A stretch of 64,000 bases of DNA from NCBI RefSeq assembly GCF_007971025.1, contig NZ_CP042436.1:496001-560000 (forward strand), given 5' to 3'. A program made the position numbers and the translations under genes. The notes under the pieces were generated by a model, which saw only the letters and a program-made list of their open reading frames with translations, ran no database searches and was not told the origin of the DNA. Positions within the stretch are counted from its first letter, which is position 1. The number at the start of each line of letters is the position of its first letter. Below, one piece after another: positions 25,048-47,176 of the stretch. This DNA comes from Mucilaginibacter ginsenosidivorans (GTDB taxonomy: Bacteria > Bacteroidota > Bacteroidia > Sphingobacteriales > Sphingobacteriaceae).

Positions 25048-27438
25048 CTAAAACTTCACATTCAGCGATACCAAAAAATTCGCCGGCGCCTGCGGGAAGT
25101 AATAATTATAATTAACCACTGTGCCGCCCTCTATATCCGGGTACGTCGCGCCGTCCGACTGGTATTTTTTGCTGAAAATGTTATTCACCAGCAAGCCTGC
25201 TCCTATCTCTTTTATACCTCTTATCCGGAAGGTATAATTAAGCCGAAGATCGTTCACCAGGTAAGCATCCAGCGACCGGCTTAAAGTCGACGTATTGTCC
25301 AAATACTGGCGTCCCACGTACTTGGTTACAAAAGCGATCTCCGCATTTTTAATGGGATGATAACTGATCGTGCTTGACCCGGTAAAGCCCGGTGAGTAAG
25401 CAATGTTGGTTTTTTGGTAGTCGGTTTCGTCCACGCCACCGGTGTCATAGTTCTGCAAAAACTGTTTGAAATTCTTCAGCTTGTTCGTGCTTAATGTAGC
25501 AGTAGCATACCAGCTCAAAGGTTCGGCAATTTTTACGCGCGCGCTTACCTCCACGCCCGTACGGTAGCTGTCCTTAATATTGGTTCGTATCGCCTCACCC
25601 ACGTCGTCAAGCGCACCGGTTAGCACTAGCTGGTTTTTGTACAGCATATAAAACCCGTTCACATTAACGCTGAAACCCGGCTGACCGAAACGGTAGCCAA
25701 GTTCAAGATCTTTCAGGTTTTCCGGCTTTGGCCTGCTTTGCGGCGATGAATTGACAAAATCGCTACGGTTCGGCTCGTGGTTACCCACGGCTATGGATGC
25801 ATACACGTTGCTATGGTCGTTAAGGTTATATGTTATGCCCGCTTTCGGGTTGAAAAAATTCAATTCCACTGCCTGCTGCACATTGTTAAGGTTTTGATCG
25901 AACCCTAAAAATGAGTAATAGATATGGCGGTATTGCAGATCGCCGTACAATAATACATCGCCGAGCTTATATTCCGCCCGGGCAAAAGTGTTAAAGTCTG
26001 TTTTCCTTGCGTTATTACGCGAATATTCGTAATCCGGCAGAATATTAGTACTTTCCTGCGTCCACTCGATATTGTTGTAGTGCCTGCCCTTGTATTCGTT
26101 GTAAGCGCCGCCGAGCGTTAAACCAAGGTTGTTGCTTGCCCTGTAGTTGAAGTTATACGTAAGGCCGTAAAAATCATTATCCAGCCAAAGGCGCCGCACC
26201 AGGTCAGTTTCATCAACAGTGGTGCCACCAATAATAACCGGCGTGATACCGTAATCGGTTAACGACTGTTCATTTTTATATTCCTCGTAGTAGCCCGAGC
26301 CTTTGGTATAATGCAGGGCCCCGCTGAAGGACAATTTGGTGCTGATCTGCTGATCGTAAAGCAGTTGGTAATAGTTCTGCGTGTAGTTATCGGTCTGGTT
26401 TTTATAGTAGCTATTGCTCGAATTGATGTAGCCCAGTTCATTATATCGCCGGTTACCGCTTTTCACGCTGTCCTCGGGCACGCCGTCCCAGGCCTGGTAA
26501 GTTTGCTCGTAACCCGAAAACACATTCAAGCGCAGCACGCTGCTTTTACCATAATACGCACCGCTTAAAAAGAACGATTTCAAATGCGAAAATGCCCTGT
26601 CGATATAACCGTCAGAGTTCATCCTAGACAAACGCCCGTCAACGCTAAAGTGACCGCCAAGCAGGCCCGTACCCAGGTTAACCGTATTTTTTATGGTACC
26701 GTATGATCCTACAGAATTGTTCAGTTCGGCATAAGCGGTATCGCGCCTGGTGGTGGTTTGGATATTGATGCTGGCGCCAAAAGCCCCGGCTCCATTGGTT
26801 GACGTGCCCACGCCGCGCTGCAGCTGTATATTATCCACAGATGAAGCCAGGTCGGGCAGGTCGACAAAGTACACACCCTGGTCCTCGGCATCGTTCAGCG
26901 GTATACCGTTCACGGTTACATTGGTGCGTGTTGCGTCCGAACCCCGGATGCGGATGCTGGTGTAACCCACACCGGCCCCTGCGTTCGATGTTACTACAGT
27001 CGATGGCGTTTGTTCCAGCAAATATTCAAAGCCCCGGCCCGAATTATTTTTGTCGATGTCTTTCTTTGTCAGATTGGTAAAAGCTGTTGGCGAGTTGTTG
27101 AAAGCACGGGTGGCGCTCACGGTAACCTCCTCGGTCATAATGCTGGCCGGGACCAATTGGAAATTAATGGTCGTGTCACTCTTCAATAAAACACTTCTTT
27201 CGATGGATTGATAGCCGAGATAGCTGACCTTAAACTGATAGGCACTGCCTTTGGAAACGCTGAGCCGGTAATTACCATCAGCATCGGTAACCGCGTTAAT
27301 GCTTGGATTGATGGTGATGTTCGCTCCCGGCAAAGCTGCGCCGGTTTGCTGATCGGTAACTTTCCCTGAAACGGAAAGCTGGGCCGCTGCCAGGACAGGC
27401 AACAGCAGGGCGATGAATGCCGCAAATAAATTTTTCAA
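25048..27438 (-). CDS. TonB-dependent outer-membrane receptor under TPP riboswitch control
   Basis: The 796-residue protein has a signal peptide, an N-terminal carboxypeptidase-regulatory-like domain (SVSGKVTDQQTGAALPGANI near 22-41), a plug domain (IRIRGSDATRTNVTVNGIPL near 165) and a beta-barrel ending in NFLVSLNVKF with a terminal Phe. The TPP riboswitch at 27505-27692 lies about 70 bases upstream, which points to uptake of thiamine or a thiamine precursor, as in the ThiOMP-type receptors of Bacteroidota. No SusD partner follows. Confidence 0.92.
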   Translation of the reverse strand: MKNLFAAFIALLLPVLAAAQLSVSGKVTDQQTGAALPGANITINPSINAVTDADGNYRLSVSKGSAYQFKVSYLGYQSIERSVLLKSDTTINFQLVPASIMTEEVTVSATRAFNNSPTAFTNLTKKDIDKNNSGRGFEYLLEQTPSTVVTSNAGAGVGYTSIRIRGSDATRTNVTVNGIPLNDAEDQGVYFVDLPDLASSVDNIQLQRGVGTSTNGAGAFGASINIQTTTRRDTAYAELNNSVGSYGTIKNTVNLGTGLLGGHFSVDGRLSRMNSDGYIDRAFSHLKSFFLSGAYYGKSSVLRLNVFSGYEQTYQAWDGVPEDSVKSGNRRYNELGYINSSNSYYKNQTDNYTQNYYQLLYDQQISTKLSFSGALHYTKGSGYYEEYKNEQSLTDYGITPVIIGGTTVDETDLVRRLWLDNDFYGLTYNFNYRASNNLGLTLGGAYNEYKGRHYNNIEWTQESTNILPDYEYSRNNARKTDFNTFARAEYKLGDVLLYGDLQYRHIYYSFLGFDQNLNNVQQAVELNFFNPKAGITYNLNDHSNVYASIAVGNHEPNRSDFVNSSPQSRPKPENLKDLELGYRFGQPGFSVNVNGFYMLYKNQLVLTGALDDVGEAIRTNIKDSYRTGVEVSARVKIAEPLSWYATATLSTNKLKNFKQFLQNYDTGGVDETDYQKTNIAYSPGFTGSSTISYHPIKNAEIAFVTKYVGRQYLDNTSTLSRSLDAYLVNDLRLNYTFRIRGIKEIGAGLLVNNIFSKKYQSDGATYPDIEGGTVVNYNYYFPQAPANFLVSLNVKF

Positions 27439-27504
27439 AATGTGAATTAATAAAATTTGTTAAACCATCTGCACACCAGGGTTGAATGCGCAGTACACTT
27501 AACT

Positions 27505-27692
27505 TTTTACCTCTCCCTACGCCGGCATTACCCGGATCAGGTGTCTGTTGAAGTCATTGGTCAGTGGTCATTAGTCATCAGTCCTTAATTAGGACTATAA
27601 GACTTTCGACTCAAGACTTTGTACTTAAACAATGGGTTTGATCTCAGCCTGTCTTTCAGTTTGATCGCTCAAAGCAAGGCACCCCTTGAGAA
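27505..27692 (-). promoter_or_regulatory. TPP (thiamine pyrophosphate) riboswitch with a long linker insertion
   Basis: Reading the reverse strand, conserved parts appear in order: GGGGTGCC (about 27679-27686), a P3/P3a-like hairpin, GGCTGAGA (about 27643-27650), ACCC, and then CCTGATC and TAATGCCGGCGTAGGGAG ending near 27512. Between ACCC and CCTGATC, normally only a few bases apart, lie about 85 extra bases (27545-27629) with a CCTAATTAAGG palindrome and degenerate TGAC/TGACC repeats. It controls the TonB-dependent receptor downstream. No terminator is clear, so control may be translational. Confidence 0.88.
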
Positions 27693-27794
27693 TTATGGAG
27701 CAAATATAGGATTTAAGTCCGAATTCCGATAGCTATCGAGACGAGTAAGTCCAATACACCGGGGAACTGGTGGTCTTGCGGGGAGATCACTTTA

Positions 27795-27925
27795 AAACAG
27801 GCGGCTCCTATGGAGCCACAAAAAACTATTTTTTATTCTATAAACAGGTTGTTCCTACGGAACTTATTGTCGTTCCAATCACTGACTCCAACGGAGTCGC
27901 CTGTTTATAGCATAAAATAAAAGAG
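27795..27925. repeat. Multi-hairpin intergenic repeat, copy A
   Basis: Outer arms AAACAGGCGGCTCC (27795-27808) and GGAGTCGCCTGTTT (27893-27906) enclose small hairpins GGCTCC-TAT-GGAGCC, GTTCC-TAC-GGAAC and GACTCC-AAC-GGAGTC, joined by the shared string CTATAAACAGGT. A related copy is at 35246-35370. No reading frame is supported inside. Confidence 0.75.
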
Positions 27926-27988
27926 GACAGTGGCTCCGGAGGTGCCTCCTGATGGCCTAAATTTTTAAATAAATAAAATCACAGAATA

Positions 27989-28558
27989 TCAGTTCGCCTG
28001 GGCCTGGAAAATATCGTTTTGCCTTAGCAGGCGTACCACTTTCACAAAACGGCGTTTATAGGTACCCTCCATTGCAGTAATGGTAACGCCGTTCTCCTTG
28101 CCCGAAGTTGAATGGATAAAGGTAAGCTTGCCGCCTTCATTGCTGTACACTATCGCCACATGCCCTATGGAGTGCGGATGATAGCTTTTTGTTCCTTTAA
28201 AAAGGATGATATCGCCCTGGCGTGCGTCTTCGATACTGATCTCCCGGCCTATGTTTGCATAATCGCCCGAAGAACGCGGCACATCGGCGTTAAAGCTTTT
28301 GAACACATAACTCACAAAGCCCGAACAATCGAAACCCCGTAACGGATCGGAGGAAGCCTCACGATAAGGTATCCCGATTAACGACTGCGCGAAGTACATA
28401 AGATCATAAGATGATATGGTATCTGTAGCGCCATTGAGGTGGAATACAGGTGGCTTTACCCTAACCTTGTATGAATGCCGCATTTTACGTGAATGGGCCG
28501 TAGCGGCAAAAGCCACACATAAAAACAAAAGGACTGTCAGGGTCAGATATCTTTTCAT
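27989..28558 (-). CDS. NlpC/P60 (C40) family cell-wall hydrolase
   Basis: The 189-residue protein has a signal peptide and an NlpC/P60 domain from about residue 50. The catalytic Cys is in GFDCSGFVSYVF near 86, the His in SIGHVAIVYS near 135 and the third residue in FIHSTSG near 150. Such enzymes cut peptide cross-links of peptidoglycan. It is transcribed away from aspS and preceded by low-complexity repeats. The single-domain form suggests a housekeeping endopeptidase. Confidence 0.92.
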   Translation of the reverse strand: MKRYLTLTVLLFLCVAFAATAHSRKMRHSYKVRVKPPVFHLNGATDTISSYDLMYFAQSLIGIPYREASSDPLRGFDCSGFVSYVFKSFNADVPRSSGDYANIGREISIEDARQGDIILFKGTKSYHPHSIGHVAIVYSNEGGKLTFIHSTSGKENGVTITAMEGTYKRRFVKVVRLLRQNDIFQAQAN

Positions 28559-45596: not shown

Positions 45597-45709
45597 TTTT
45601 TTTATGATTGAACGACCAAACAATATTACTAAAAATATTAGTAAATATTAATCGCTATTTTAAAATTAATCTGCACATTTGCATATCTGCACATTTACGC
45701 ATTAGAACA

Positions 45710-47176
45710 TTGGCCAAAACTAAAGTTGCTTATTTCTGCCAGAGCTGTGGCTTCGAATCGCCTAAATGGCTGGGTAAATGCCCGTCGTGCCAGCACTGGA
45801 ACACCTTTGCCGAAGAAATAATTGAGAAGGAAAACAAATCCATCCCCAATTGGAAAACACCTTCCACTTCCATGCAGCGTGCCAATAAACCCATACAGGT
45901 ATCCGATATCAGTTTTGACGAAGATCAGCGGATACTCACGCCCGACAACGAGTTTAACCGCGTACTGGGTGGCGGTATTGTAGCCGGTTCGTTGGTATTG
46001 ATAGGCGGCGAACCGGGCATCGGTAAATCGACCCTGATGCTGCAACTGGCGCTGAATATGCCATCCATGAAAGTGCTTTATGTGTCGGGCGAAGAAAGTG
46101 AGCGGCAGATCAAAATGCGGGCGGAACGATTGGTGCAGTCAGAAGTCAGAAGTCGGAAGTCAGAAGTCGATAACGTCAAATCCGAAATTGAAAATTCGAA
46201 ATTCGAAATAGGATCAGAATGTTATATATTAACCGAAACATCTACCCAAAATATATTCAAGCAGATAGAACAACTGGAACCTGATATGGTGGTTATCGAT
46301 TCGATACAGACGCTGTATTCTTCCCATATCGAATCGACACCCGGGAGCGTGTCGCAGGTACGGGAATGTACCGCCGAATTGCTTCGTTTTGCCAAAGAAT
46401 CGGGCACGCCGGTATTCCTGATCGGGCACATCACGAAGGACGGCATGATAGCCGGACCAAAAATACTGGAGCACATGGTAGATACCGTTCTGCAATTCGA
46501 GGGCGACAGGCACCATGTTTACCGTATCCTGCGCGCTGTGAAAAACCGTTTCGGTTCGGCATCCGAACTGGGTATTTATGAAATGCTGGGCGAAGGCCTG
46601 CGCGAAGTATCCAACCCATCAGAGATATTGCTCTCGCAGCGCGACGAGCCATTGAGCGGCATCACCATTTCGGCTACGCTGGAAGGAATGCGGCCGATGC
46701 TGATAGAAACGCAGGCATTGGTTAGTACGTCAGCCTATGGCACCCCTCAGCGTACCGCTACGGGCTTTGATACCAAGCGCATGAACATGTTGCTAGCTGT
46801 GCTCGAAAAGCGTTGCGGCTTCAAATTGGGGGGTAAGGACGTCTTTTTGAATATCACAGGCGGTATCAGTGTGGAGGACCCTGCCATCGACCTCGGCCTG
46901 GCCGCGGCTATCATCTCGTCGCACGAGGATATCCCTATCCCCTTCAAAACTTGCTTTGCGGGCGAGATCGGCTTATCGGGCGAGGTACGAGCGGTGAACC
47001 GTATCGAACAGCGTATTGCCGAGGCCCAAAAGCTTGGCTTCGAGCAGATATTTATTTCGAAATACAACCTGGAATCGGGCGGACAAAATAAAAAGCGCAT
47101 CGATTTGACGCGCTACAATATTGCCGTTAAAACTGTAGGCAGTATTGAGGAGGTCTTCAGCGCATTATTTGGCTGA
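45710..47176 (+). CDS. radA: DNA repair protein RadA
   Basis: The 488-residue protein has the zinc finger CQSCGFESPKWLGKCPSC near residues 9-26, Walker A GGEPGIGKST near 100, the RadA motif KNRFGSASELG near 280 and a Lon-like C-terminal domain. It is a branch-migration helicase for recombination intermediates. It starts at TTG. About 27 residues near 143-170 (46136-46218) are not part of the family and resemble intergenic repeat DNA read in frame; they sit between Walker A and Walker B. Confidence 0.95.
   Translation: MAKTKVAYFCQSCGFESPKWLGKCPSCQHWNTFAEEIIEKENKSIPNWKTPSTSMQRANKPIQVSDISFDEDQRILTPDNEFNRVLGGGIVAGSLVLIGGEPGIGKSTLMLQLALNMPSMKVLYVSGEESERQIKMRAERLVQSEVRSRKSEVDNVKSEIENSKFEIGSECYILTETSTQNIFKQIEQLEPDMVVIDSIQTLYSSHIESTPGSVSQVRECTAELLRFAKESGTPVFLIGHITKDGMIAGPKILEHMVDTVLQFEGDRHHVYRILRAVKNRFGSASELGIYEMLGEGLREVSNPSEILLSQRDEPLSGITISATLEGMRPMLIETQALVSTSAYGTPQRTATGFDTKRMNMLLAVLEKRCGFKLGGKDVFLNITGGISVEDPAIDLGLAAAIISSHEDIPIPFKTCFAGEIGLSGEVRAVNRIEQRIAEAQKLGFEQIFISKYNLESGGQNKKRIDLTRYNIAVKTVGSIEEVFSALFG
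46136..46218. repeat. Repeat-derived in-frame insertion inside radA
   Basis: Four spaced copies of AGTC(A/G)GAAGTC-type units followed by AAATTCGAAATTCGAAATA are low-complexity strings of the sort seen between genes elsewhere in this window (28570-28610). Here they encode charged residues and leave the radA frame open. Confidence 0.7.

Follow-up and report, generated by a model that had tools for sequence, protein, structure and literature searches.

THI elements were reportedly the subject of a study by Rodionov et al. in 2002. In the TPP aptamer, the P4/P5 arm constitutes the pyrophosphate-sensing half. The two sensor arms of TPP riboswitches are oriented by a three-way k-junction that makes no contact with the ligand (PMC10573300), and J2-4 has been reported to lack order in the ligand-free state and to become ordered when TPP is present (PMC11751092). 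Riboswitches can carry variable stem-loop insertions, which cause low-scoring matches (Barrick and Breaker 2007, PMC2258182), among them an optional P3a stem-loop. In Bacteroides thetaiotaomicron, a TPP riboswitch precedes the gene for OMthi (BT2390), a TonB-dependent outer-membrane thiamine transporter (PMC5613172).

Here we describe a locus in a 64-kb stretch of the Mucilaginibacter ginsenosidivorans genome (hereafter, the window) that shares with the RF00059/THI element the P1-P5 core, the UGAGA, ACCC, and CUGAUC-GG-UAAU-CC-GCG-AGGGA motifs, and a position upstream of a gene with a putative thiamine-type transport role. The Mucilaginibacter form differs in having a 39-121-nt hairpin in J2-4, RCAC in place of GAAC, and a score below the Rfam gathering score. 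Its position before a TonB receptor gene is, by description, that of the OMthi riboswitch, but the accessible portions of that report mention no extra arm (PMC5613172). While the k-junction described in the available text of PMC10573300 is three-way, the Mucilaginibacter arm is set in the same junction, where a fourth helix is predicted. The P3a stem-loop lies in the P3 arm, whereas the Mucilaginibacter arm lies in J2-4, and the portions of PMC2258182 at hand describe neither a J2-4 arm nor its exchange for genome repeats. In the literature searched (mostly titles and abstracts, with thin coverage of older work, so that an earlier mention is possible), we found no J2-4 arm or repeat exchange within it. 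Variable riboswitch insertions and a TPP riboswitch before a TonB receptor are thus already known, but the repeat-exchanged J2-4 arm is apparently new.

Results

A TPP riboswitch with a predicted fourth helix precedes a TonB-dependent receptor gene

Reading of the sequence placed a TPP aptamer at 27691-27510 on the minus strand, with its core motifs intact. On this strand the leader consists of TCTC-AAGGGGTGCC...GGCTGAGATCAAACCC, 93 nt, CTGATCCGGGTAATGCCGGCGTAGGGA, and then the 3' strand of P1, with the P2/P3 half reading GGGGTGCC...GGCTGAGATCAAACCC. The consensus for the Bacteroidota -7 box is TAnnTTTG, and a transcription start can be presumed from the promoter-like box TATATTTG. The features of the locus, with the basis for each, are as follows.

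27701-27708, minus strand: promoter-like -7 box of the Bacteroidota type, TATATTTG (sequence)
27688-27691, minus strand: 5' strand of P1, TCTC, with partner GAGA (unconstrained minimum free energy [MFE] fold of 27704-27500)
27638-27684, minus strand: 5' strand of P2, GGGT, and the P3 arm, with the conserved UGAGA at 27646-27642 (sequence and MFE fold)
27634-27637, minus strand: 3' strand of P2, ACCC (pair probabilities 0.72-0.74)
27541-27633, minus strand: J2-4 linker of 93 nt, the predicted extra arm or fourth helix (paired part 27631-27546)
27514-27540, minus strand: P4/P5 arm, CTGATCCGGGTAATGCCGGCGTAGGGA (pair probabilities 0.95-1.0)
27459-27504, minus strand: conserved expression platform hairpin, AGTTAAGTGTACTGC ... 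GCAGATGGTTTAAC (alignment of 94 leaders)
25048-27438, minus strand: TonB-dependent receptor with a CarboxypepD_reg-like N-terminal domain (Pfam PF00593, PF07715, and PF13715)

The unconstrained MFE fold of 27704-27500 is a four-way junction of P1, P2/P3, the extra arm, and P4/P5, with helices P1, P2, P3, P4, and P5 in the correct order, consistent with the claim of a preliminary description that the conserved TPP parts are intact and in order. The same description had counted about 85 extra bases; the linker is indeed long, but ACCC to CCTGATC measures 92 nt. It had also reported a palindrome in the linker, and the linker on its own folded to -24.8 kcal/mol; compared with 100 dinucleotide shuffles this corresponds to z = -4.3, indicating a palindrome beyond chance. 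The linker ends with (R)CAC just before P4. Palindromes of another kind (GGCTCCTATGGAGCC, TGTTCCTACGGAAC, and GACTCCAACGGAGTC) were observed at 27795-27951, between the riboswitch promoter and an NlpC/P60 gene at 27989-28558.

The expression platform occupies ~75 nt between the 3' strand of P1 and the receptor gene. An NCBIfam search of the window receptor returned no match, but the presence of the riboswitch, together with the example of B. thetaiotaomicron OMthi as described in the accessible part of PMC5613172, points to a role in thiamine uptake, and we infer that this is a putative OMthi-like thiamine receptor. An orthologous receptor lies directly downstream in 92 of the 94 loci from the genus, and the other two stop at a contig end; the genus receptors are 58-82% identical to that of the window and begin 76-122 nt after the core start. 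The alternative pairings of the platform were almost invariant in an RNAalifold analysis of the 94 leaders and showed no covariation. The CCC in the loop of the platform hairpin could base-pair with the GGG in the 3' strand of P1/P4, a plausible switch. Within the platform, the 3' strand of the hairpin (27459-27470, minus strand) holds a AGATGGTTTAAC that is strongly conserved across the 94 aligned leaders and reads as a two-codon frame, AUG-GUU-UAA.

The arm conceals the riboswitch from a standard RNA-family search

At Rfam's own cut-offs, no entry is listed for the window. The preliminary description had proposed scoring the element with RF00059 in forms with and without the insert; for the form with it, a match was obtained at a loose cut-off, but its 38.5 bits fall short of the gathering score of 54.3 bits, which is a database cut-off and not a biological feature. 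The alignment at this loose cut-off wrongly takes the arm's palindrome for P2/P3, in place of the true P2/P3. This element is the sole TPP match in the single-contig 5.35-Mb genome. When RF00059 was applied to 100 Mucilaginibacter genomes, 94 had a match and 39 had one above the cut-off, leaving 55 of the 94 matched genomes with no TPP match above it. None of 95 arm-bearing loci, comprising the window and 94 other sub-cut-off matches from 93 genomes (one genome, G038, has two; all were fetched), reached the gathering score.

The effect of the arm was gauged by a fold comparison with an armless leader and by using short-armed relatives as natural controls. Fourteen of 20 sub-cut-off loci fetched from other genomes of the family could be parsed (six could not), and these had hairpin linkers of 21-45 nt at the same site. 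Their RF00059 scores were 45.0-53.2 bits, compared to 66.7-82.3 bits for parsed armless canonical forms, indicating that the shortfall goes with the insertion. It is the arm that conceals the riboswitch from a standard RNA-family search.

The arm is universal at the receptor locus in the genus sample

The linker is 39-117 nt, mostly 85-100 nt, in all 94 of the other loci, and unrelated body types share a concentration of lengths at 88-100 nt; the shortest arms are 39, 40, and 46 nt, and those of 39 and 46 nt have sisters with 92-95 nt. The core pattern is free of errors in 94 of the 95 loci and has a single error in one, and both GCTGAGA and TCA(A/T)ACCC are present in 95/95. The P2/P3 half was observed in two lengths, ~43-45 and 60-72 nt (shorter lengths are due to contig ends), indicating a P3a-like extra stretch of P3 in part of the genus.

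A set of loci independent of any RNA model was assembled by using the receptor protein as bait in genome records. This set comprised 80 loci, nearly all labelled Mucilaginibacter, of which 75 had enough upstream sequence, the other five being cut by contig ends; it overlaps the RNA-anchored set of 95. A riboswitch with a 40-121-nt linker was present in 75/75, with a single spanning arm in 74, and none had a short linker. By comparison, the linker is 6-7 nt in 30/30 of the canonical TPP aptamers of Mucilaginibacter taken as the 30 best matches (5 of 60 loci were unparsed, and earlier rules parsed 11, 27, and 35 of the 60), indicating that the arm belongs to the receptor locus. In the genus sample, no copy of this locus lacks the arm. 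The preliminary description had suggested an insertion peculiar to this locus, and had named as a refutation relatives in which such a linker is ordinary for the group. The 94 other loci and the 75 receptor-anchored loci bear out that refutation, a long linker being the usual form for the genus.

The linker forms a covarying helix

Folded alone, every linker (95/95) formed a single arm with the outermost pair spanning it. The z-scores against dinucleotide shuffles had a median of -4.1 and were below -2 in 88 and below -3 in 71 of the 95 arms. Foot pair 3:L-5 is a standard pair in 95/95 arms (UA in 55, GC in 32, AU in 7, and CG in 1), while the highest count in 2000 shuffles was 60. Across the four foot pairs, standard pairing was found in 360 of 380 cells in register, compared to 149-232 with the partner slid. 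All 95 arm sequences are distinct. The junction residues, in turn, are A or G after ACCC and, before CTGATC, RCAC in 92 of the 95 and GAAC in three. These comparative data demonstrate a covarying helix, predicted to be the fourth, at the P1/P2/P4 junction, and the suggestion of the preliminary description that the aptamer has gained a variant arm is upheld by the base pairing of the linker and the covariation of its foot.

Arm bodies resemble repeats dispersed in the same genomes

Three types of arm body were distinguished: type A, to which the window arm belongs, consists of AGTC/GACT heptamers, type B of CCCCCTnAAGGGGGAG..., and type C of GAGACnCAAnATnTTGnGTCTC. Rule-based sorting of the 95 arms assigned 28 to A, 22 to A2 (a looser heptamer), 22 to B, 4 to C, and 19 to other, so that under strict rules 41 arms (A2 and other) are outside A, B, and C. 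The corresponding repeat patterns are dispersed among the 100 Mucilaginibacter genomes, with A found in 87, B in 85, and C in 40, at up to 382, 58, and 66 copies per genome, respectively; reversed-pattern controls gave 0 for B and C and low counts for A in most genomes, reaching 46 in a single genome. Dispersal in many copies is a feature of mobile palindromic repeats of the REP/MITE kind. Copies of a pattern are more numerous in genomes whose arm is of that type than in the others, with medians of 54.5 vs 11 for A, 24 vs 11 for B, and 25 vs 0 for C, the arm itself adding at most 4 to the count (Mann-Whitney p = 5.7e-6, 6.3e-5, and 1.1e-3, respectively, with kinship ignored).

A BLAST search of eight genomes with the type-B arm of genome G041 returned 1-29 matches per genome. 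Many of these begin at arm position 1-3, and full-length matches elsewhere stop at position 73-74 of the 78, immediately ahead of the conserved GCAC. The proximity of match ends to arm ends implies that repeat and arm share about the same limits. In G041 itself, BLAST found no near-identical second full-length copy of the arm, with a best identity of 78%. Collectively, these data strongly suggest that arm bodies correspond to dispersed genome repeats.

In the window, AGTCNNNAGTC has 8 matches compared to 0.62 expected, and AGTCNNNAGTCNNNAGTC has 61 matches in the whole genome. The likeness of the linker to intergenic repeats of the window, as put forward in the preliminary description, thus stands with respect to the enrichment of the AGTC-heptamer, but not with respect to its intergenic setting, as the sole other cluster is inside the radA coding sequence. 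That cluster, at 46137-46168 on the plus strand, lies in frame within radA (ORF 45608-47176; TIGR00416, 585 bits) and encodes QSEVRSRKSEVDNVKSEIENSKFEIGSE between RadA blocks, a dispersed repeat turned coding. The genome has five C-type palindromes, of which one, GAGACGCAAGATTTTGCGTCTC, lies at 951-972 of the window. A search for the parent repeat of the window arm in its own genome returned only 30-nt partial matches, the best at 87% (E 0.004), and no parent was assigned.

Arms are replaced between sister species

The leaders of closely related species were subsequently compared. For G022 and G081, the receptors are 96.6% identical, the P2/P3 halves 100%, and the P4/P5 arm plus platform 95.3%, while the arms are 50.5% identical (shuffled mean 51.6). 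The same pattern, with arms at the shuffled level, was observed for G068/G027, G057/G082, and G090/G089; across these sister pairs with replaced arms, receptors are 93-97% and P4/P5 plus platform 95-99% identical. One pair, G084/G060, is borderline, its arm identity of 59.2% equalling the shuffled maximum (59.2), and in the control pairs G013/G031 and G026/G098 the arms are 97-98% identical. The incomplete loci of G005 and G038 depress some P2/P3 identities, and those rows were not used for P2/P3. As judged from these alignments, the arm changes wholesale between sister species. The link between the linker and genomic repeats, raised for the window in the preliminary description, is accordingly supported for the genus as a whole by copy numbers, sister pairs, and BLAST.

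On a FastTree phylogeny of 92 receptors, at least 18 changes among arm types A, B, and C are required for the 74 labelled rows, with G052 and G039 assigned to B by eye and A2 merged with A, and at least 15 for the 52 rows with strict labels. Shuffled labels gave a mean of 23.1 changes (17-26), indicating some inheritance of arm type along with much turnover. The 18 changes are not a count of new insertions, since whole arm alleles could recombine between species.

Arms outside the genus

An exact pattern for a 70-100-nt linker matched 106 of 301 genomes in 9 of 25 genera in a sample of the family (0 for the reversed pattern) and 151 of 400 genomes in a sample of the order that overlaps the family sample. 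One other large genus in this family, g14, has arm types of its own (AAGGTAAAAGGTAGAAGGT... and CAATTTCCAAACGTTTGAAAATTG), indicating that repeat-filled arms extend beyond Mucilaginibacter. In a class sample of 345 genomes, a 41-101-nt form was found in 9 of 13 genomes of the same family and in 0 of 332 from other families, although exact-letter patterns undercount and miss many TPP riboswitches. A 2-32-nt form gave 44 matches in 43 of the 345 genomes; 21 of these have 5-7 nt, while 23 have 19-32 nt and form a small hairpin when folded, indicating that the J2-4 linker is not invariably short across the class. These small hairpins imply that J2-4 is an optional hairpin site across the class and that the long repeat-filled arm was elaborated in one family.

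Discussion

Based on the data presented above, it is probable that the window element is the TPP riboswitch of a TonB receptor with a repeat-exchangeable J2-4 hairpin and a four-way junction, a form present in Mucilaginibacter and several related genera. The riboswitch would control a TonB-dependent, probably thiamine, receptor, and the long hairpin between P2 and P4 would turn the three-way junction into a four-way one. Of its parts, the core, the platform, and the residues facing the junction (A/G after ACCC, RCAC before CTGATC) would stay constant, while the arm body would be free to be replaced because the arm needs only to be a closed hairpin. The body would have been swapped many times for palindromic repeats dispersed in the same genomes, whether by repeat copying, by repair at hairpins, or by allele exchange between species. 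Conservation across the loci demonstrates constraint on the core, junction residues, and platform, and an arm that, by the same comparison, must close but is free in sequence. The RNA presumably retains TPP binding and shuts off the receptor, and the arm is likely to point away from the binding site and to be tolerated rather than needed. A fourth helix at J2-4 could alter folding or kinetics.

It is possible, if somewhat unlikely, that the arm is instead a selected structure-only domain, such as a rigid spacer, a transcription-pause hairpin or timer, or a protein-binding duplex, with length and pairing kept as the sequence drifts or is swapped. Such a domain would be consistent with the arm never being lost in the 95- and 75-locus sets while canonical paralogues do without it, with the concentration of lengths at 88-100 nt across unrelated bodies, and with short arms at the same site across the class. 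However, the body has no conserved sequence, arms of 39, 40, and 46 nt exist, those of 39 and 46 nt beside 92-95-nt sisters, and the repeats themselves may fix arm length.

We also considered whether the arm changes between sister species are mainly the result of whole leader alleles recombining, as opposed to new repeat copying. The recurrence of arm types on the receptor tree and the near-identical arm starts in distant genomes (G029 with G026/G098) are in line with this explanation, but P2/P3, platform, and receptor are not co-exchanged with the arm in sister pairs, bodies correlate with the repeat content of their own genome, and the composite-looking arms of G090 and G077 combine an older foot with an inner C-type palindrome, so that we regard it as unlikely. 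A more speculative and likewise unlikely proposal is that the arm is a domesticated docking site, that is, a needed fourth helix serving as a folding timer or rigid spacer that recruits any palindromic repeat; if true, selfish repeats would be interchangeable structural parts of a metabolite sensor.

Decay of the riboswitch with loss of TPP binding is very improbable. While the RF00059 score is under the cut-off and the GAAC before CTGATC is altered to RCAC in 92 of the 95 loci, the core is kept in all 95 (one with a single error) even though receptors diverge to 58% identity, 55 of the 94 matched genomes have no other TPP match above the cut-off, and RCAC is likewise seen in short-armed forms from other genera. 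Finally, a recent repeat insertion at the window locus only, disrupting or tolerated by an ordinary riboswitch, might be suggested by the AGTC-heptamer type of the window arm, with 61 pattern matches in its own genome, and by the failure to reach the Rfam cut-off, but can be dismissed almost entirely, since the arm is at the same place in all relatives examined, the core is intact, the foot covaries, and a one-off event is refuted by the 75 of 75 receptor-anchored loci with an arm.

A TPP riboswitch with a J2-4 hairpin exchangeable for genome repeats, which we favor, has several implications. It corrects the annotation of the genus, in that the thiamine switch goes unlisted in 55 of the 94 matched Mucilaginibacter genomes, where no TPP match passes the Rfam cut-off. 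With forms that have no arm, a short hairpin, or a long arm at one site, nature offers a series in an aptamer of solved structure by which the tolerance of the TPP junction can be tested directly. Moreover, it would illustrate with unusual clarity how dispersed repeats can serve as interchangeable modules in a conserved regulatory RNA, with the pairing of the foot kept.
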